A stretch of DNA of 64,000 bases from Sneathiella sp. HT1-7. GTDB taxonomy: Bacteria; Pseudomonadota; Alphaproteobacteria; Sneathiellales; Sneathiellaceae. The stretch is from the NCBI RefSeq assembly GCF_020731145.1, contig NZ_JAJFZN010000002.1, positions 806,001 to 870,000 of the forward strand, given 5' to 3'. A program made the position numbers and the translations under genes. This document shows positions 55,642 through 63,787 of the stretch, one piece after another. How positions within the stretch are numbered: the stretch's first letter is position 1; the number at the start of each line of letters is the position of its first letter. The notes under the pieces are model-generated. The model did no database searches and was not told where the DNA came from. It worked only from the letters and a program-made list of their open reading frames with translations.

Positions 55642-56169
55642 ATGGTTGACGAGACAGAAGAAGAGGCGCTGGACGCCGATCAGGAAGAAGACGGCGAGCC
55701 GAAGAAAAAGAAGAAATTTAGCGGTAAGGTTCTGGTTCTGTTTGTTCTGCTTCCCTTGCTGGTCGTCGGTGGCGGCGCGGGTGGTGCCTATTTCGCAGGT
55801 GTATTCGATACGCCGGAACCAACGGAAGAGGAAATCGCCGCAGAGGCCGTTGAGGTCAACAAGAAAGTGGTTTTCTACGATCTGCCAGAAATGCTTGTCA
55901 ATCTTAACTCCGCTAATTCATCAAGCAGCTTTTTGAAGCTTGGTGTTTCGCTGGAACTGGAAGATGAAACCACGATTCCGGATCTGGAACTTTTGATTCC
56001 GCGGATCATGGATAATTTTCAGGTTTACCTGCGTGAACTCCGGAAAGAAGACCTGAACGGCTCTCAGGGCGTATTCCGCCTGAAGGAAGAATTGCTGATG
56101 CGGATCAATAGTTCGGTCGCGCCAGTCAAAGTGAACGACGTGTTGTTTAAAGAAATGCTGGTGCAGTAG
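55642..56169 (+). CDS. fliL: flagellar basal-body protein FliL
   Basis: Inner-membrane protein that surrounds stator units and supports torque. The 175 residues have an acidic and then basic N-terminal segment, one membrane helix (about residues 31-58, VLVLFVLLPLLVVGGGAGGA), and the periplasmic stomatin-like domain (VVFYDLPEMLVNLNS, FLKLGVSLELED), ending in VNDVLFKEMLVQ. It is followed by fliM eight bases later. Confidence 0.94.
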   Translation: MVDETEEEALDADQEEDGEPKKKKKFSGKVLVLFVLLPLLVVGGGAGGAYFAGVFDTPEPTEEEIAAEAVEVNKKVVFYDLPEMLVNLNSANSSSSFLKLGVSLELEDETTIPDLELLIPRIMDNFQVYLRELRKEDLNGSQGVFRLKEELLMRINSSVAPVKVNDVLFKEMLVQ

Positions 56170-56177
56170 GAAAATTT

Positions 56178-57338
56178 ATGTCTGATCAAGACGACGAAAT
56201 GGATATGGCCGCTGCGATGGCCGCTGAAGACGACGGTGAGATGGACATGGCCGCCGCGATGGCCGCCGATGATGACGGCGAAATGGATATGGCCGCGGCA
56301 ATGGGCGGTGATGACGATATGGCCGCTGCGATGGAGGGAGGCGACGACGCGTCCTCCGCTGCCGAAATGAGTGGCCACAGCACACGTGTTCTTAACCAGG
56401 ACGAAATCGACAGCCTGCTTGGCTTTGACATGGACGGCGGCGAGGGGGGTGAAAACTCTGGCATCAAGGCCATCATCAACTCTGCGCTGGTCAATTATGA
56501 ACGTCTCCCCATGCTGGAGGTTGTGTTTGATCGTCTAGTCCGGATGATGACGACGTCGCTGCGCAACTTTACATCTGATAACGTGGAAGTCAGTCTTGAT
56601 AACATCACCTCCATCCGGTTTGGTGATTATCTCAACTCTATTCCGCTTCCCGCAATTTTGAGCGTTTTCCGCGCCGAAGAGTGGGATAACTTTGGCCTGA
56701 TCATGGTCGAAAGCTCCCTGATTTACTCAATCGTTGACGTACTGCTCGGCGGGCGTCGCGGTACGGCGGCAATGCGGATTGAAGGTCGCCCCTATACGAC
56801 GATTGAGCGCAACCTGGTCGAGCGGATGATATCTGTTGTTCTTAACGACATGACCGGCGCGTTTGAACCTCTAAGCCCAGTAACCTTCCGTCATGAGCGG
56901 ATTGAGACCAACCCACGCTTCGCGACGATTGCGCGCCCGGCGAATGCAGCGATCCTGATCAAGCTCCGTATTGATATGGAAGATCGCGGCGGACGCATTG
57001 AAATGCTTTTGCCCTATGCCACACTTGAACCGGTTCGTGAGTTGCTTCTGCAGATGTTTATGGGGGAGAAATTCGGCCGTGACAGCATTTGGGAAAACCA
57101 TCTGGCCACCGAGCTTTGGTCAACCGAGGTAGATATCCAGGCTGTTCTTGATGAGAAAAAGATGTCTCTCAGTGAGGTTTTGAATCTCGGTATTGGCGAT
57201 ACGGTCATGTTTAATGCGTCGCCAGACAGCCCGACGACCCTACGATGCGGTGGCATTTCGATGGTCTCAGGCAAGATGGGTCGATCCGGCCAAAATATCG
57301 CCGTTAAGGTTGATAAGTCACTCAGACCTATGGGTTAG
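56178..57338 (+). CDS. fliM: flagellar motor switch protein FliM, with repeated N-terminal extension
   Basis: Switch-complex protein of the C-ring (386 residues). The middle domain (LVNYERLPMLEVVFDRLVRM, then FGDYLNSIPLPAILSVF) and C-terminal SpoA domain (VLNLGIGDTVMFNAS) are typical. The CheY-binding motif LNQDEIDSLLGF, normally at the extreme N-terminus, begins only at about residue 72. It is preceded by a tandem 14-residue repeat, EMDMAAAMAAxDDG, rich in Met, Ala and Asp. The repeat is nearly exact at DNA level (56196-56348). Confidence 0.95.
   Translation: MSDQDDEMDMAAAMAAEDDGEMDMAAAMAADDDGEMDMAAAMGGDDDMAAAMEGGDDASSAAEMSGHSTRVLNQDEIDSLLGFDMDGGEGGENSGIKAIINSALVNYERLPMLEVVFDRLVRMMTTSLRNFTSDNVEVSLDNITSIRFGDYLNSIPLPAILSVFRAEEWDNFGLIMVESSLIYSIVDVLLGGRRGTAAMRIEGRPYTTIERNLVERMISVVLNDMTGAFEPLSPVTFRHERIETNPRFATIARPANAAILIKLRIDMEDRGGRIEMLLPYATLEPVRELLLQMFMGEKFGRDSIWENHLATELWSTEVDIQAVLDEKKMSLSEVLNLGIGDTVMFNASPDSPTTLRCGGISMVSGKMGRSGQNIAVKVDKSLRPMG
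56196..56348 (+). repeat. 42-base tandem repeat inside fliM
   Basis: Three units, GAAATGGATATGGCC and onward, start at 56196, 56238 and 56280. The first two are 42 bases long; the third is 39 bases and is followed by a half unit to 56348. Each full unit encodes EMDMAAAMAA(E/D)DDG. Most differences between units are synonymous, so the protein repeat appears selected. Slippage could change the copy number. Confidence 0.9.
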
Positions 57339-57342
57339 AATA

Positions 57343-57825
57343 ATGATGGATAATATGCCCCTCGATTTTCTGCTTAACTTGTTTCTAGTCGGCTTGCTGC
57401 TGGCGACAATCGCTTACTGCGCCATGTTGAACAAGCGATTGTCCAATATGCGTGATGCCCATTCGGAATTGCGTCAATTGACGGAAGAGTTTGACAAAGC
57501 GCTTGTTCGATCGAAAAGCGGCGTGGATGAGCTGAAACTGCAGGCGGCGACAACCGGGAAACAGTTTAATGCCGAAATCAAGCAGGCCAAGGAACTCATA
57601 GAAGAATTACAACTTATCAATGCGTCCAGCACGCGTATTGCGGACCGTCTTCAGAAGGGCGTGGAATCCTCGTCCAAGCGGGAAATAACCGGCATTTATG
57701 ACGATGATCCCGCCGGTCTTTTCGACGATGAAGATGTCGTGCCTGCGCGTCCGGCAGAAGAACCGGCGAAGTTCCGCACTGAGGCGGAAAAAGAGCTTTT
57801 TGACATGCTGACTAAGTCGAAGTGA
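57343..57825 (+). CDS. DUF6468 flagellar-cluster protein
   Basis: A 160-residue protein with an N-terminal membrane helix (LDFLLNLFLVGLLLATIAYCAML), a coiled coil (LRQLTEEFDKALVRSKSGVDELKL), and a disordered acidic tail ending in EKELFDMLTKSK. It matches DUF6468, a family I know as encoded between fliM and motE in alphaproteobacteria. Its role is unknown. ATG at 57343 is chosen (a second ATG is one codon later). It starts five bases after fliM. Confidence 0.75.
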   Translation: MMDNMPLDFLLNLFLVGLLLATIAYCAMLNKRLSNMRDAHSELRQLTEEFDKALVRSKSGVDELKLQAATTGKQFNAEIKQAKELIEELQLINASSTRIADRLQKGVESSSKREITGIYDDDPAGLFDDEDVVPARPAEEPAKFRTEAEKELFDMLTKSK

Positions 57826-57839
57826 GACAGGGTTTTTTC

Positions 57840-58541
57840 ATGATGAAACATATTCGCATATTGCCGATAACAGTCGTTGCACTGGTTCTGATATTCGGTC
57901 TCAAGCTGAGCGCTGTCTGGACGGGCGCGCAGGGCGTTCTCTTCGACGTTGATGTGGCAACGGCTCAAGCCAGTGACAAGACCGAGGAGGCTGAACCAGA
58001 AGAAGCAGCCGCAGTGGAAGATGAGAAAATGGACGCGGCTGAAGAAAGTGCACCGACCGTCGAGCCTGTGAAAGAGGCGACGGTTGCCTCAGCCGACCCG
58101 AACGGCTCACAGCAGTTTTCAAAGAGTGAAATTGAGGTTCTAGAGCGTCTGGTTGACCGCCGGGCGGAGTTGGACCGTCGCGGTGAAGAACTGGATATGC
58201 GTGATAATCTGCTCAAGGCGACAGAATCTCGCATTGACGAAAAAATCAGTGAATTGAAAGAGATGGAGACAACTCTTAAATCTCTTCTTCAAATGCATGA
58301 CGAGCAGGAAAAGGCCCAAATGGAGAGCCTGGTCAAGATCTATGAGAAAATGAAGCCCAAAGACGCAGCGCGCATTTTCAACGAGCTTGAAATGGATATC
58401 CTCATCGATGTTGCGAGTAGCATCAAGGAATCAAAAATGGCGCCAATTCTTGCGGCGATGAACAGTAAACGGGCGAATATGCTGACCGTTGAACTGGCCA
58501 CCCGCCGCCAGCTTCCCGGGGAGGAAGAAGGTAAGAGCTAA
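57840..58541 (+). CDS. motE: MotE-family protein (MgtE N-domain-like)
   Basis: A 233-residue protein of the COG3334 type named after MotE, a periplasmic chaperone for MotC in Sinorhizobium. It has an N-terminal membrane anchor or signal (ILPITVVALVLIFGLKLSAVW), an acidic linker, a coiled coil (VDRRAELDRRGEELDMRDNLL), and the conserved MKPKDAARIFNELEMDILIDVASSI domain. ATG at 57840 follows CAGGG; a GTG overlapping the upstream stop is the alternative. If the homology implies function, its client may be the large periplasmic protein encoded downstream. Confidence 0.83.
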   Translation: MMKHIRILPITVVALVLIFGLKLSAVWTGAQGVLFDVDVATAQASDKTEEAEPEEAAAVEDEKMDAAEESAPTVEPVKEATVASADPNGSQQFSKSEIEVLERLVDRRAELDRRGEELDMRDNLLKATESRIDEKISELKEMETTLKSLLQMHDEQEKAQMESLVKIYEKMKPKDAARIFNELEMDILIDVASSIKESKMAPILAAMNSKRANMLTVELATRRQLPGEEEGKS

Positions 58542-58684: not shown

Positions 58685-59398
58685 GTGACTGGAACGGACA
58701 ATAAAATATCGGTGGAAATCGACATGGGTGAGCCGATGACAGGCCCGGCGATTGAGAAAAACGCCAATGCCGTCGTCTTTGTGTCGCTCTATCTGCTGTT
58801 GCTCGCCTTCTTCATTTTCCTGCACTCCGTCTCTGTTCTGCAAGAAGAACGTGTCCGGACAGTTCTTGGCAGTGTGAATATCGCCTTTGCAGGCTTGTCC
58901 CGTGATACCCCGGCGGATCGGCAGAAGAAACTTTCCGGCGAAGAACAGGGCACGCAAGACTTTCACGCAAAACTCAAAAATGTATTTGAAACGGCGGTCC
59001 CACTTGTTGAATCCCGTTTTACAAAGGGCGGCACGCGGCTTCAATTCTCTGTTCCCGTTCGTCAACTGTTTGGCTATCGCAGTCTGGAGTTGCGCGACAC
59101 ACTTGGCTCTTTTCTCGATGATGTTGCCGCGACATTGATTGCACGTAACAATAACGTTTCGACTGATCTTGAAATTCTTATCGGCTCCGGCGTTGATCTG
59201 CCGAAGCTTGCGAATGTTTCCGATGACATCGCCGCGCAGCGGGTCAGCCATCTTTCTCAGGTTTTGATGGAGGCGGGGGTGCCCTCTCGCAATATATCGA
59301 TTGGTGTGGCCGCAGGAGATGCAGGGCTAATTCATTTCAGCTTTTTTCTGCGGCCGTCGCTTACCTTTCAGTTCCGGCCGGAGGAAGGTGCACCATGA
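58685..59398 (+). CDS. MotB-like protein lacking the proton-binding Asp
   Basis: A 237-residue protein with one N-terminal membrane helix (FVSLYLLLLAFFIFLHSVS) that aligns with the plug-helix region of MotB, and a C-terminal half with a weak OmpA-like pattern (LEILIGSGVDLP and QRVSHLSQVLMEAGVPSRNISIGV). The helix has Ser (residue 34) where MotB carries its essential Asp, so it cannot by itself conduct protons. It overlaps the true MotB gene by four bases (ATGA). It may be a structural partner or a specialised stator subunit. GTG start at 58685. Confidence 0.75.
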   Translation: MTGTDNKISVEIDMGEPMTGPAIEKNANAVVFVSLYLLLLAFFIFLHSVSVLQEERVRTVLGSVNIAFAGLSRDTPADRQKKLSGEEQGTQDFHAKLKNVFETAVPLVESRFTKGGTRLQFSVPVRQLFGYRSLELRDTLGSFLDDVAATLIARNNNVSTDLEILIGSGVDLPKLANVSDDIAAQRVSHLSQVLMEAGVPSRNISIGVAAGDAGLIHFSFFLRPSLTFQFRPEEGAP

Positions 59399-60117
59399 CT
59401 ATTATCGGCCTGAGTTATGAAAAATCACCGACCACCAGCACGGCCTGGATGACGTCGCTCGCCGATTTGTTGGCGCTGCTGCTCGCATTTTTCGTGCTGA
59501 TGTTTTCGATGAGTGAAATCAAGGTCGACCGTTGGCAGACCTTGACCGAAACTTTCGGTAACAAGATGAGCGACGTTACTGATCTGGTCACCAAGACAGG
59601 CGAAGCTGAAAAAAACATGTCGATGATCAATGAGCCCAAGGCTATTGATCTTGCCTATCTTGAGCATATTTTGAACGGTAAAAAGCAGCAGAGCGAGCTT
59701 CTCGCGAATGTTGATATTTTTCGTGCCGACGATCGTCTGGTCATTTCTCTTGCCGGCTGGGATTTCTTCAAGCCGGGAACCGAAAAGGAAGGCGGCGAGG
59801 TTGTTGAAGTGATCGACATGATCGGCAGTACGCTCCATCACGTTAATAATCAGGTCGAGGTTTATGGGCATACGGATCCGGACCCGATCACTTCTCCGAC
59901 GGCAAAATATTCGAATAACTGGGCGCTGTCGCTGGCCCGTGCGCTGTCGGTGGCAAATGAGTTGGAACGCTCCGGATATGATTATCCGATCCGGGTTTAC
60001 GGCATGGCGGATTCCCGCTTTAGTGAACTAATTTTTGTGGACGACAAGGTTAAAAAATATGCTTTGGCGCGACGTGTGGACATCGTTGTGCGTGAAGCTG
60101 AGGGTCGAGGGAAGTAA
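59395..60117 (+). CDS. motB: flagellar motor protein MotB-like, with conserved Asp
   Basis: A 240-residue stator-type protein. TAWMTSLADLLALLLAFFVLMFSMS contains Asp 24 in the position of the MotB proton-binding Asp. The C-terminal OmpA-like domain has VEVYGHTDPDP and NNWALSLARALSVANELERSGY, as needed to bind peptidoglycan. No motA is nearby, so its partner must be elsewhere. It is preceded by an Asp-less paralogue and followed four bases later by a large repeat protein. Confidence 0.88.
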   Translation: MTIIGLSYEKSPTTSTAWMTSLADLLALLLAFFVLMFSMSEIKVDRWQTLTETFGNKMSDVTDLVTKTGEAEKNMSMINEPKAIDLAYLEHILNGKKQQSELLANVDIFRADDRLVISLAGWDFFKPGTEKEGGEVVEVIDMIGSTLHHVNNQVEVYGHTDPDPITSPTAKYSNNWALSLARALSVANELERSGYDYPIRVYGMADSRFSELIFVDDKVKKYALARRVDIVVREAEGRGK

Positions 60118-60121
60118 GATT

Positions 60122-63100
60122 ATGAACCGCGTTATCAATCATGGATTTAAGCATCGTCTGGGACAATCATTGTTACTGGCTACGCTGGTTATCGCGTTTC
60201 TGATGAGCGATGCCATGGCCGCCGCCCCGGTGACAGTGACGGCGGCAGATAAGGAAAATGTCGGTCGGCTTGTTTTCAACTGGGAGGCCGCGCCGGAATT
60301 CACGACAGAACAGGAAGAGGGATATCTTTATATCCGCTTCACGAAGCCTTTTGATACGGATCTTTCTGCAGCCTCTGCTGCGCTTGCGCAGTATGTTGGC
60401 AAAGGGGAGATACTGGAAGGAAAGCAGTCGCTTCGTTTTCCGCTCAAAGGTGCTCTGAGCATTGTCACGCGGCAGGAAACCAACGCCATTATTGTCGAAC
60501 TTAAGAAAACCACCGAGACGGCAAAGAAGAAAACCGAGAGTGGTACCACAGCTGTTCGCCTGAGAAGCGGCGATCATGCAGATTTCAGCCGCCTCGTGTT
60601 TGACTGGCCGACAGCAAAAATCGGCTATAGCAGCCGCACAATCGGAGATAGCTTGATCATTACCTTCGATGCACCGGCGAAGATGGACGTAAAAGCGTTT
60701 AACCAGGATCCGCTCGATTTTGCAAAATCTATCTCCCTTTCGTATGTGGATGGCAAGACGGAAGTTTCCGTCCAGATGTCTCCCGATAGCGTCACGTCCA
60801 ATTTCCGCAATGAGAACAGCATCGTTTTTGATATTAAAAAGGGGAAGGTGACGGCGAAGCCTGCGCCTGAGAAAGTTCAAGCTGCGAAAGTCAGTGACCC
60901 GGTAAAGAAAGAGCAACCTGTCAAGGCCGCAACGGTGGCAGTAAAACCCACAAACCTTGCACAAGAAGAAAAATCCGCCCAAAAAGCGCCGGTCATAGAA
61001 TTGCCAGTAGTCAATCTGGAACCGAAAAAAGTAAAAACGGCTCCTGTGTCCACGATGACACCGACGAAAAAGGCTTTGGAAAAAGTCGCGCTTAAAGAAG
61101 ATACGGCGCAAGAACTGCCTGCGCCGAAACCGATTGCCGGCTCTAATGTGGTTCAGCTAAAAACACTGGAGAGCGATGAGGCGCTAAACAATGTCTCTCC
61201 GTCCTCTGGCAAGGGATCTGGTTCAGCAATTGTTGCCATCAGCCCGACAATTATTCTAGATCCGGTCGTTAAGGAAGTGGACGTCGCGAAAGCTGACGTG
61301 CCAAAAGCGGCGCCTCTTGTCATCAAGGATGTCAAAGAAGAACCTGTTAAGAAGGTAGAAGCGAAGCTGGTTGTCTCGGAGCCACTTGCTGAGCCTGAAG
61401 GGCGCGGCCTAAAAGTTAAAATTGCTAATTTGAAGGACGGCTTTCGCCTTATTTTTCCGTGGGATAAGCCATCTGCAATGGCTATGTTTGAAGCCGGTGG
61501 TGCGCATTGGGTCGTTTTTGACAAAAAATCCAAGGCGAATTTTGAGAATCTTTCTGGACCATACAAATTCCTTGTTCCCAGTGCTCGCCAGATAGATCAT
61601 GACGGCGCGACAGTGCTCCGTTTCAATTTCCGTGCTGGATATGCACCCAAGGTTCATAAGGTAAACGAAGAATGGTATGTGGATTTCCAGCTTGATGCGC
61701 CGCCGGTGATAACCCATCCGCTCGGTGTCCAGACGCAAGGGATCTCTGCTTCTGAATTTCGGGCCTTTATTCCAGCCGTGAATAATGGCAAAGAAGTCCG
61801 TTTCAATATTCCTGACAGTAAAGAGGAGCTTGTGGTGATGCCGCTGCGGGGTTCGGGCTGGGGGATCGCAGCGGAGCAAATTTTTAACAGTATTACCGTC
61901 CTGTCTACGGTGCAGGGGATCGCGCTTAATTCTACGGCCGCCGAGATCCGGATTGGTCATGAACAGAACGGACTGGCGGTCACGGCTGTCTCCAATGAAT
62001 TCGCGGCCCCTCTCGTACCGAAGGAAGTTCCCAAAAAGCCGGGCGAAGAAATCTATCCGACACCGGAAATCGGGAAAGCGCAGTTTGTTCGCCTGAAGGA
62101 GTGGCAGCAGGTAAACCCGCTTCTTTTCACGATCAGGAAGCAGGAACTGCAGAACGCAGCGGCCGCGGCGGAGAAAAAGGACAAGCGTGCTGCTAAAATG
62201 ACGCTTGCAAAATTTTTCATCGCGCATAACCAATTTGCCGAAGCGTCTGGTGTGCTGGCGGAGCTGCTCCGGAGTTATCCAAAAATTGAGAAAGACCGTG
62301 AGTACCGGCTTCTGACCGGACTGGCGGATCTTGGGATGCATCGCTATGAGGCGGCGGCGCGTAACTTATATCATGAAGATTTTGAAGGTGATGTAGAGGT
62401 GGCTCCCTGGCGCGGAGTGGTTTCGGCAAGCCTCGGGAATTGGAAACGGGCGGCGCAGGAACTCAACTATTCCGCGCCAGCTTTTGATGTGTATGAGAAA
62501 GAGCAGCGCGATCATTTTCGCTTGCTTCAGGCGCGCGCGGCACTCGAGAATGTGGATGTAAATAAGGCGAAACAGGCGCTTGATCTGGTGAAGTCGCCCG
62601 AGGAGAAAAAACAAAAAGCTGAAAAGGCCTATCTGGAAGGTGTCCTTGCATTGCAACTTAGCGATTTTCCTACGGCGTCGGCGAAATTTACCGAGGCAGT
62701 GAAACTCAATTACCGGCCCGTGTCGGAGAAGGCGCGCTTTAACAAGATCAATGTCGATCTGGTGGCCAAGCTGATCACGCCAGAGCAGGCCATTGCTGAA
62801 TTTGAAAAACTCGATTTTTCATGGCGTGGGGATGCACAAGAGGTTGAGGTGCAGAAACGTCTTGGGGATCTCTATGTGGCAACGGGCCAAATTGGCAACG
62901 GGCTTGAAACGTATAAGCGGATTGTCCAGCATTTCCCGAAGTCGCCCTATTCGCGCGATCTGGGCCGCAAGATGAATAACCTGTTTGCGGAGCTGTTCCT
63001 GGATGGTGCCGCCGATGAGCTTCCGCCGATCAAGGCGCTTGCGATCTATTATCAGTATCGTGAACTGACGCCCGTCGGAGATCGCGGAGATAAAATGATC

Positions 63101-63787
63101 CAGATACTGGCGGATCGTCTGACACGGGTAGACCTTCTGGAGCAGGCCGCGCAGTTACTCGAGCATCAGGTCAATTTCCGGCTCAAAGGGCTAGCCAAGG
63201 CTCAGGCAGGCACGAAGCTGGCGATTGTTCATCTATGGAACGGCAAACCGCAAGAGGCCATGCGAGTTCTCTATGATACGCGTTGGCGCCAGCTGTCGCC
63301 CGAGGAGAAGAAAGAGCGTATCCATATTGAAGCACGGGCACAGGCGGGACTACAGAATTATGATGAGGCACTGCAGTTGATCGCGAGTGACGGCAGCATT
63401 GAGGCTGACGAACTTCGCGCCGAAATTCACTGGAAATCGCGTAAATGGGCCCGGGCTATCCCGGCAATTGAAAAGCTGATCGGCAATGGCGACAGCAAGG
63501 GTGAAGACTCCACTCGGCTTGATCGGCAGCGGGTCATGCAGATGGCCGTTGCCCATAATCTTTCCAACGATAAGAACGGCATCCGAAATTTGCGGCAGAA
63601 ATACGCCAGCTTGATGGAAGGGACGCCCGATCAGGCCGCCTTTGATCTTATCACGGAGCAGAATGATCCGTCAGAAACAGAATTTCGGGAGCGGGCAACA
63701 GTTATCGCCAGAGTTGGCCAGTTGGAATCTTTTATGGCGGGCTATCGCGAAAAGCTTGAAAATGGTGAATTCTGGGCCGCGTTTTAG
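60122..63787 (+). CDS. large secreted protein with AMIN-like repeats and TPR region
   Basis: A 1221-residue protein with a signal peptide (LLLATLVIAFLMSDAMAA). Three related beta-rich segments start with similar strands: RLVFNW near residue 48, RLVFDW near 156, and FRLIFPW near 441. They are like AMIN domains, which bind the cell wall. A long Lys/Pro/Ala-rich linker separates the second and third. From about residue 690 the protein is helical, with TPR-like repeats (AKFFIAHNQFAEASGVLAEL, then MRYEAAARNLY-type units). I know no described family for the whole. The stop overlaps the convergent dehydratase gene. Its place after motB suggests a periplasmic motor or stator accessory. Confidence 0.8.
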   Translation: MNRVINHGFKHRLGQSLLLATLVIAFLMSDAMAAAPVTVTAADKENVGRLVFNWEAAPEFTTEQEEGYLYIRFTKPFDTDLSAASAALAQYVGKGEILEGKQSLRFPLKGALSIVTRQETNAIIVELKKTTETAKKKTESGTTAVRLRSGDHADFSRLVFDWPTAKIGYSSRTIGDSLIITFDAPAKMDVKAFNQDPLDFAKSISLSYVDGKTEVSVQMSPDSVTSNFRNENSIVFDIKKGKVTAKPAPEKVQAAKVSDPVKKEQPVKAATVAVKPTNLAQEEKSAQKAPVIELPVVNLEPKKVKTAPVSTMTPTKKALEKVALKEDTAQELPAPKPIAGSNVVQLKTLESDEALNNVSPSSGKGSGSAIVAISPTIILDPVVKEVDVAKADVPKAAPLVIKDVKEEPVKKVEAKLVVSEPLAEPEGRGLKVKIANLKDGFRLIFPWDKPSAMAMFEAGGAHWVVFDKKSKANFENLSGPYKFLVPSARQIDHDGATVLRFNFRAGYAPKVHKVNEEWYVDFQLDAPPVITHPLGVQTQGISASEFRAFIPAVNNGKEVRFNIPDSKEELVVMPLRGSGWGIAAEQIFNSITVLSTVQGIALNSTAAEIRIGHEQNGLAVTAVSNEFAAPLVPKEVPKKPGEEIYPTPEIGKAQFVRLKEWQQVNPLLFTIRKQELQNAAAAAEKKDKRAAKMTLAKFFIAHNQFAEASGVLAELLRSYPKIEKDREYRLLTGLADLGMHRYEAAARNLYHEDFEGDVEVAPWRGVVSASLGNWKRAAQELNYSAPAFDVYEKEQRDHFRLLQARAALENVDVNKAKQALDLVKSPEEKKQKAEKAYLEGVLALQLSDFPTASAKFTEAVKLNYRPVSEKARFNKINVDLVAKLITPEQAIAEFEKLDFSWRGDAQEVEVQKRLGDLYVATGQIGNGLETYKRIVQHFPKSPYSRDLGRKMNNLFAELFLDGAADELPPIKALAIYYQYRELTPVGDRGDKMIQILADRLTRVDLLEQAAQLLEHQVNFRLKGLAKAQAGTKLAIVHLWNGKPQEAMRVLYDTRWRQLSPEEKKERIHIEARAQAGLQNYDEALQLIASDGSIEADELRAEIHWKSRKWARAIPAIEKLIGNGDSKGEDSTRLDRQRVMQMAVAHNLSNDKNGIRNLRQKYASLMEGTPDQAAFDLITEQNDPSETEFRERATVIARVGQLESFMAGYREKLENGEFWAAF

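Follow-up and report, generated by a model that had tools for sequence, protein, structure and literature searches.

Two overlapping genes of Sneathiella sp. HT1-7 encode MotB-like proteins, here called B1 and B2, of which only the second carries the ion-binding Asp. B1 and B2 probably sit together in one flagellar stator as its two unlike B-subunits, giving a MotA5:B1:B2 unit with a single ion site. The genes lie in a window of 64,000 nucleotides, the whole stretch of DNA that was analysed (Table 1). Adjacent B genes with and without the Asp are found in many alphaproteobacteria, where they hint at a motor power unit that works with one ion site in place of two. The parts are known relatives of MotB; the asymmetry of the B pair is new to us.

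Table 1. The B1-B2 pair and the genes around it, in coordinates of the window
Feature	Position	Strand	Remarks
fliL	55642..56169	+	
fliM	56178..57338	+	named by eye
DUF6468 protein, PflI-like by position	57346..57825	+	start codon approximate
MotE-like protein	57822..58541	+	MgtE_N and FlbB-collar matches, both under cut-off
B1, Asp-less MotB/PomB paralogue	58685..59398	+	GTG start, 237 aa; helix VFVSLYLLLLAFFIFL with ion-site Ser34; plug-like helix at about 54-71; OmpA-like domain at about 109-222
ATGA overlap, B1 stop/B2 start	59395..59398	+	4 bases
B2, PomB-like MotB	59395..60117	+	ATG start, 240 aa; ion-site Asp24 in SLADLLALLLAFF; intact GHTD ... LSLARA peptidoglycan motif
MotK-like protein	60122..63787	+	TPR repeats in C-terminal part, signal-peptide-like start by eye; named by position and architecture

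The earlier note had described two consecutive, overlapping MotB-like genes, and both were recovered, with an overlap of four bases that would be expected to couple the translation of B1 and B2. B2 has the features of MotB/PomB, namely the ion-site Asp, the plug and an OmpA-like domain with GHTD and LS..RA. It matched Pfam MotB_plug with 45.5 bits (cut-off 24) and OmpA with 32.1 bits (cut-off 27.2), its NCBIfam matches were all under their cut-offs, and its structure model had a mean pLDDT of 84.7. B1 matched MotB_plug with 20 bits and OmpA with 12.9 bits, both under the cut-off. The two OmpA scores, together with the counts of the peptidoglycan Asp given below, agree with the note's description of a weaker OmpA-like domain in B1.

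The homology of B1 was examined by comparison of profiles and of folds. Alignment with hhalign of a profile of 62 B1 relatives (A3) against a B2 profile of 48 rows (A4) gave a probability of 99.2 and an E value of 2.9e-19. The helix was gap-free and Ser34 of B1 lay opposite Asp24 of B2, which confirms the residues that had been assigned to the site from the letters alone. Against PDB sequences, the top matches of the B1 profile were 8bri, a flagellar motor protein (E 8.2e-12), and PomB 8zyv (E 8.6e-12); further MotB sequences were matched as well. For B1, AlphaFold2 gave a model (mean pLDDT 83.9) with a membrane helix at 27-50, a second helix at 54-71 and the OmpA-like domain; the second helix sits at the place of the plug, with a low pLDDT of 51-54. 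Foldseek with this model returned PA0833, the MotB-like DVU_2228, and the periplasmic domains of Salmonella MotB, MotS and PomB. Profile alignment, PDB sequences and folds thus make B1 homologous to MotB/PomB across the helix, the plug and the OmpA-like domain, and a B1 unrelated to MotB, which the note had named as a refutation, was not what hhalign, the PDB sequences or Foldseek returned. Because the ion-carrying Asp is absent (Ser34), we file B1 as a MotB-derived paralogue and not as an ion-conducting MotB.

The ion site was then compared across relatives, in an enlarged set where uniqueness was judged by the last 150 residues and each protein was labelled B1 or B2 by the higher-scoring profile. 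Among 149 unique B1 relatives the residue was Ser in 86, Ala in 32, Gly in 24, Asp in 3 and Asn in 1, with 3 uncovered; among 147 unique B2 relatives it was Asp in 144, with 3 uncovered. A small residue (Ser, Ala or Gly) therefore stands in 142 of the 146 covered unique B1 proteins, against Asp in 144/144 covered unique B2 proteins. A smaller first set (L041-L129), in which rows were not made unique, had S 48, A 27 and G 13 among 88 B1 rows and D in 87/87 B2 rows. A misaligned Asp was considered and rejected on the basis of an independent profile alignment and of a fixed spacing to a conserved Phe pair, found at D+8 in 144/146 and at D+9 in 143/146 B1 proteins. The second refutation named in the note, an acidic residue at the site on proper alignment, likewise did not appear in B1. 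The plug helix of the B1 relatives is also kept, with Lys/Arg in 141/145, Ser in 125/144 and Phe in 138/144. In the OmpA-like domain the peptidoglycan Asp of GHTD was present in 104/131 covered B2 but only 11/120 covered B1 proteins, as read from a profile-aligned column within a gappy region; the partner Arg was present in 123/146 B1 and 126/135 B2 proteins.

B1 is under purifying selection. Its dN/dS against four relatives was 0.068, 0.074, 0.054 and 0.104, at synonymous distances of 0.6 to 2 of which the wider ones are near saturation, and that of B2 against the same four was 0.044, 0.080, 0.056 and 0.073. A quick tree built from 138 representatives plus a canonical MotB placed B1 and B2 on the two sides of one starred branch (SH-aLRT 97). 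A smaller tree, from which the rows of 27 mostly long-branched loci were left out, had B2 starred (99) and B1 at 82. Many inner branches of both trees are weakly separated.

Not every first copy has a dead site, since three carry the Asp (L146, L188 and L198) and one has Asn (L160). Two of the Asp-bearing copies were basal to B1 in one tree and nested in the other; their Asp may be ancestral or regained. The B1 and B2 profiles gave almost equal scores (85 and 73 bits) for the first copy of L198 (L198:1408-2846), as would suit gene conversion of its first half from B2. L169, which has the same family code as L198, has Ser at the site.

B1 matches were found in 23 of the 25 genomes of the order. 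In a sample of 387 genomes of the class, which we take to be Alphaproteobacteria, 95 matched the B1 profile (E<=1e-5) and 78 the B2 profile (E<=1e-18), with 99 in the union, and the loci of all 99 were inspected. B1 and B2 stand in tandem on one strand in 96/99, a count that includes the frame-broken G275 and also G348, where a contig end truncates the first copy. They are apart in one genome, and contig ends interrupt the pair in two others: G115, with B1 and B2 at the ends of two contigs, and G171, whose contig starts at B2. The sole class genome with a separated pair, G137 (L193:1970-8768), has the genes on opposite strands, separated by about 5 kb. Among 149 ordered pairs, of which the broken locus L123 contributes three combinations, a B2 start overlaps the end of B1 by 4 bases in 92 and by 1 base in 25, and is placed elsewhere in 32; overlaps of 4 bases and 1 base suit equal synthesis of B1 and B2. 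No fused B1-B2 protein was seen among the loci inspected, and plasmid records gave no match to two B1 queries.

The genome has a lone PomA-like MotA, encoded away from the pair (G000:C7:213422-214207) near genes that by eye resemble fliG, fliH and flbD. Its best NCBIfam match is PomA, at 228 bits against a cut-off of 341. In the class sample a PomA-like MotA at E<=1e-25 was present in 94/99 pair genomes (absent in G071, G127, G129, G171 and G348). Conversely, the pair was present in 94/101 genomes with a PomA-like MotA at E<=1e-55 (absent in G059, G095, G128, G242, G257, G268 and G383). This co-occurrence has a Fisher p of 1.5e-74, a value that ignores relatedness, and it points to the PomA-like MotA as the cognate partner of B1-B2. 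Two stretches around this MotA, from genomes with no pair hit (L200 and L201), held no B1 or B2, and the pair is not expected at that place.

A canonical MotA-MotB pair is also encoded in this genome (C4:578-580 kb). A canonical MotB query found a match at E<=1e-15 in 92/99 pair genomes, the weaker ones possibly being other types of MotB, and because of this match B1 could serve another role in those 92. In the other seven pair genomes, each of which also has the PomA-like MotA, a MotB_plug search found 12 matches, every one of them located at the pair. Completeness of these genomes is 91-99%, with 6% contamination in one, so that a canonical MotB could have been missed in each. In these seven genomes the B1-B2 pair should be the stator.

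The pair is embedded in an operon that resembles one in Cereibacter sphaeroides. On the plus strand the order is fliL, fliM, DUF6468, MotE-like, B1, B2, MotK-like. Among 59 named loci a motK-like gene was found in 57 (by tblastn), a motE-like gene in 53, in each case upstream of the pair, fliM in 51, fliL in 49 and DUF6468 in 30, counts in which some loci are too short for all the genes and TPR repeats may inflate the motK-like matches. The equivalent operon of C. sphaeroides is reported as fliL-pflI-motE-motA2-motK, and its MotE and MotK as periplasmic rotation factors that are required for rotation and bind MotB2 (PMC10954123). The gene order fliL-pflI-motE-...-motK is the same in the Fla2 system of that report, where motA2 stands between motE and motK (PMC10954123); in this genome the B1-B2 pair takes that place.

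Tandem MotB genes were also found in another group of the phylum. Of 299 genomes searched, 113 matched the B1 profile A3 (E<=1e-7), many of them probably through ordinary MotB. Thirty of these loci were inspected, of which 6 belong to our own class and 22, all of the family code f165, have a tandem B pair (L208-L231 except L220 and L227). The first copy of the f165 pairs has Glu in 21/22 and Gln in one (L216), and the second copy has Asp. Three opened f165 loci have a PomA-like motA, the first B, the second B and a FliL-like gene in that order (MotA by Pfam in L210, the rest by eye). Of two further loci, L227 has two Asp-bearing copies and L220 shows one MotB. A common origin of the f165 first copies and B1 had a tree support of 72 and was not starred. 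These Glu/Asp pairs may have an asymmetry related to that of B1:B2.

We favour a stator in which one B-subunit is active and the other inactive, on the near-constant pairing, the co-occurrence with the PomA-like MotA, the genomes where no other MotB was found, and the kept pore and plug helices. In this stator a pentamer of the PomA-like MotA would surround a B1:B2 heterodimer. B2 would provide the sole ion-carrying Asp and the main peptidoglycan anchor, and B1 the other helix of the pore, its Asp place taken by a small neutral residue, plus its well-kept plug helix. In the turnstile model of 5:2 stators both B-subunit Asp residues work alternately. The current 5:2 cycle moves 36 degrees per ion and uses ten ions per turn (PMC9389320). 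Since a B1:B2 axle has one site, a turn would take five steps of 72 degrees and five ions, at half the maximum torque. That B1:B2 turns in MotA5 in this way, with B2 alone carrying the ion, is a serious possibility that we put forward tentatively. We infer the heterodimer, the 5:1:1 stoichiometry, the single-site stepping and the type of ion; the last is likely Na+, judged only from the resemblance to PomA/PomB.

The heterodimer is favoured by the pairing of the genes, their coupling, the A-subunit that both would share, and side-chain sizes at the interface. The dimer-interface positions of E. coli MotB are A31, M34, M38, F41 and W45 (PMC10659934). Mean side-chain volumes in B1 and B2 are 158 v 97 at D-1, 189 v 149 at D+2 and 124 v 188 at D+13; they are alike at D+6 and D+9, and a large difference at D+3 lies outside the core. 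A mutual-information test on the helices of 138 B1-B2 pairs, with an effective number of 83 at 60% identity, gave no support for the heterodimer, the expected coiled-coil register ranking 20 of 49. Also counting against it are the alike positions D+6 and D+9, the first copies with Asp or Asn, the five pair genomes with no PomA-like hit, the seven genomes with a strong PomA-like hit and no pair hit, and the lack of a fused B1-B2 protein among the loci inspected. The one-active, one-inactive stator raised in the earlier note is partly supported: it gains from pairing, co-occurrence and kept helices, and draws nothing from coevolution.

The same note had wondered whether B1 is a structural adaptor. 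B1 would then be an accessory outside the MotA pore, either a membrane-anchored periplasmic protein that joins a B2 homodimer stator to MotE, the MotK-like protein and FliL, or a recruiter. The position of B1 between the motE-like and motK-like genes fits such a role, given that MotE and MotK of C. sphaeroides are reported to bind MotB2 (PMC10954123), as does the C-terminal domain of B1, which diverges more than the rest of the protein and seldom retains the peptidoglycan Asp. An adaptor would have no need of a pore motif, yet the helix and the Phe pair are among the best-conserved parts of B1 and a small residue occupies the ion site in 142/146. In f165, moreover, the first copy with its Glu or Gln lies directly downstream of motA in the three opened loci. 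The kept pore helix and the small residue weaken the adaptor, which we consider rather unlikely while still giving it some weight.

B1 might also enter the pore by itself, as homodimers in MotA pentamers that would form ion-dead units and compete with B2 units, tuning torque or holding places at the motor. The elements expected to enter the pore are retained in B1, and the genome has a sole PomA-like MotA at E<=1e-25, and the two proteins would therefore draw on the same A-subunits if each enters the pore. The bulky Leu/Val at D-1 in B1 (158 against 97 in B2) nevertheless looks ill suited to a homodimer; E. coli MotB with A31I, at the D-1 place, is non-motile (PMC10659934). Coupled translation would also be expected to spend half of the A-subunits on dead units, and we give this reading a small chance of being right. 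A functionless, decaying duplicate, to which the Pfam scores of B1 under threshold might point, is almost certainly wrong, as it is already contradicted by dN/dS values of 0.05-0.10 in four comparisons. No internal stop was seen among the B1 class-search matches listed, where one locus (G275) is broken into pieces. A pseudogene was rejected by the low dN/dS and the wide distribution.

Two other A-B-B loci resembling motors were observed in the same genome. In L014:3783-5371 (G000:C6, about 361.8-363.4 kb) an ExbB is encoded with two ExbD proteins, the first with Asp (TSLIDVIFLLLLFF) and the second with Asn at the same place (IALINVVFLMLIFF). This ExbD D/N pair was found in 7 of the 9 genomes with a match among the 25 of the order that were searched, that is, this genome and six relatives. 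It may be another case, independent of B1-B2, in which an active B-subunit is paired with a neutral one, and an ExbB-ExbD1-ExbD2 motor of the same bacteria may have a related Asp/Asn asymmetry. In L013:2211-7153 (G000:C5, about 114-119 kb) a MotA/ExbB-like protein is followed, by eye, by two vWA-like proteins with an Asp-bearing helix (SFLDIMSCGLGAAVL, SFLDLVSCGFGAVVL). This unfamiliar A-B-B motor-like cluster comes after a formylglycine-enzyme-like protein, also by eye.

Among the papers listed by searches of an open-licence library, judged by titles and the openings of abstracts, none described an Asp-less MotB paired with a normal MotB, and the terms 'Asp', 'aspart' and 'tandem' are absent from the main text of a 2025 survey of MotAB evolution (PMC12505986). 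How many ions pass per turn, and whether alternating B-subunit Asp residues are needed, is an open question. A 2022 review gives ten ions per MotAB turn as the prediction, concedes that five might still be accommodated given errors in the torque data, and states that this lower number would call for an entirely new model (PMC9389320). If our reading is true, a widespread one-site stator would make the question of ions per turn directly testable, and would show that the B axle can do without two-fold symmetry.

In the stators known so far the two B-subunits are identical, each with an ion-site Asp. The nearest are the Na+-driven PomA/PomB and MotP/MotS, with five A- and two B-subunits: B2 shares the PomB-type helix, the plug region and the OmpA-like domain, and for the likely partner MotA the best-scoring NCBIfam model is PomA. 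Unlike in those systems, an Asp-less second B gene adjoins the first in 96/99 genomes, and motA lies elsewhere in this genome. The ExbB-ExbD1-ExbD2 proteins of Ton systems also combine one A-type gene with two B-type genes; they belong to another family and have no flagellar role. AglR/AglQ/AglS of Myxococcus gliding has, as here, one A-type and two MotB-like proteins, and the formation of an AglQ/AglS heterodimer has been named as an open question (PMC9389320, PMC9120999). Unlike B1, AglQ and AglS are both predicted with the Asp (PMC9389320), and they are gliding proteins and not flagellar stators.
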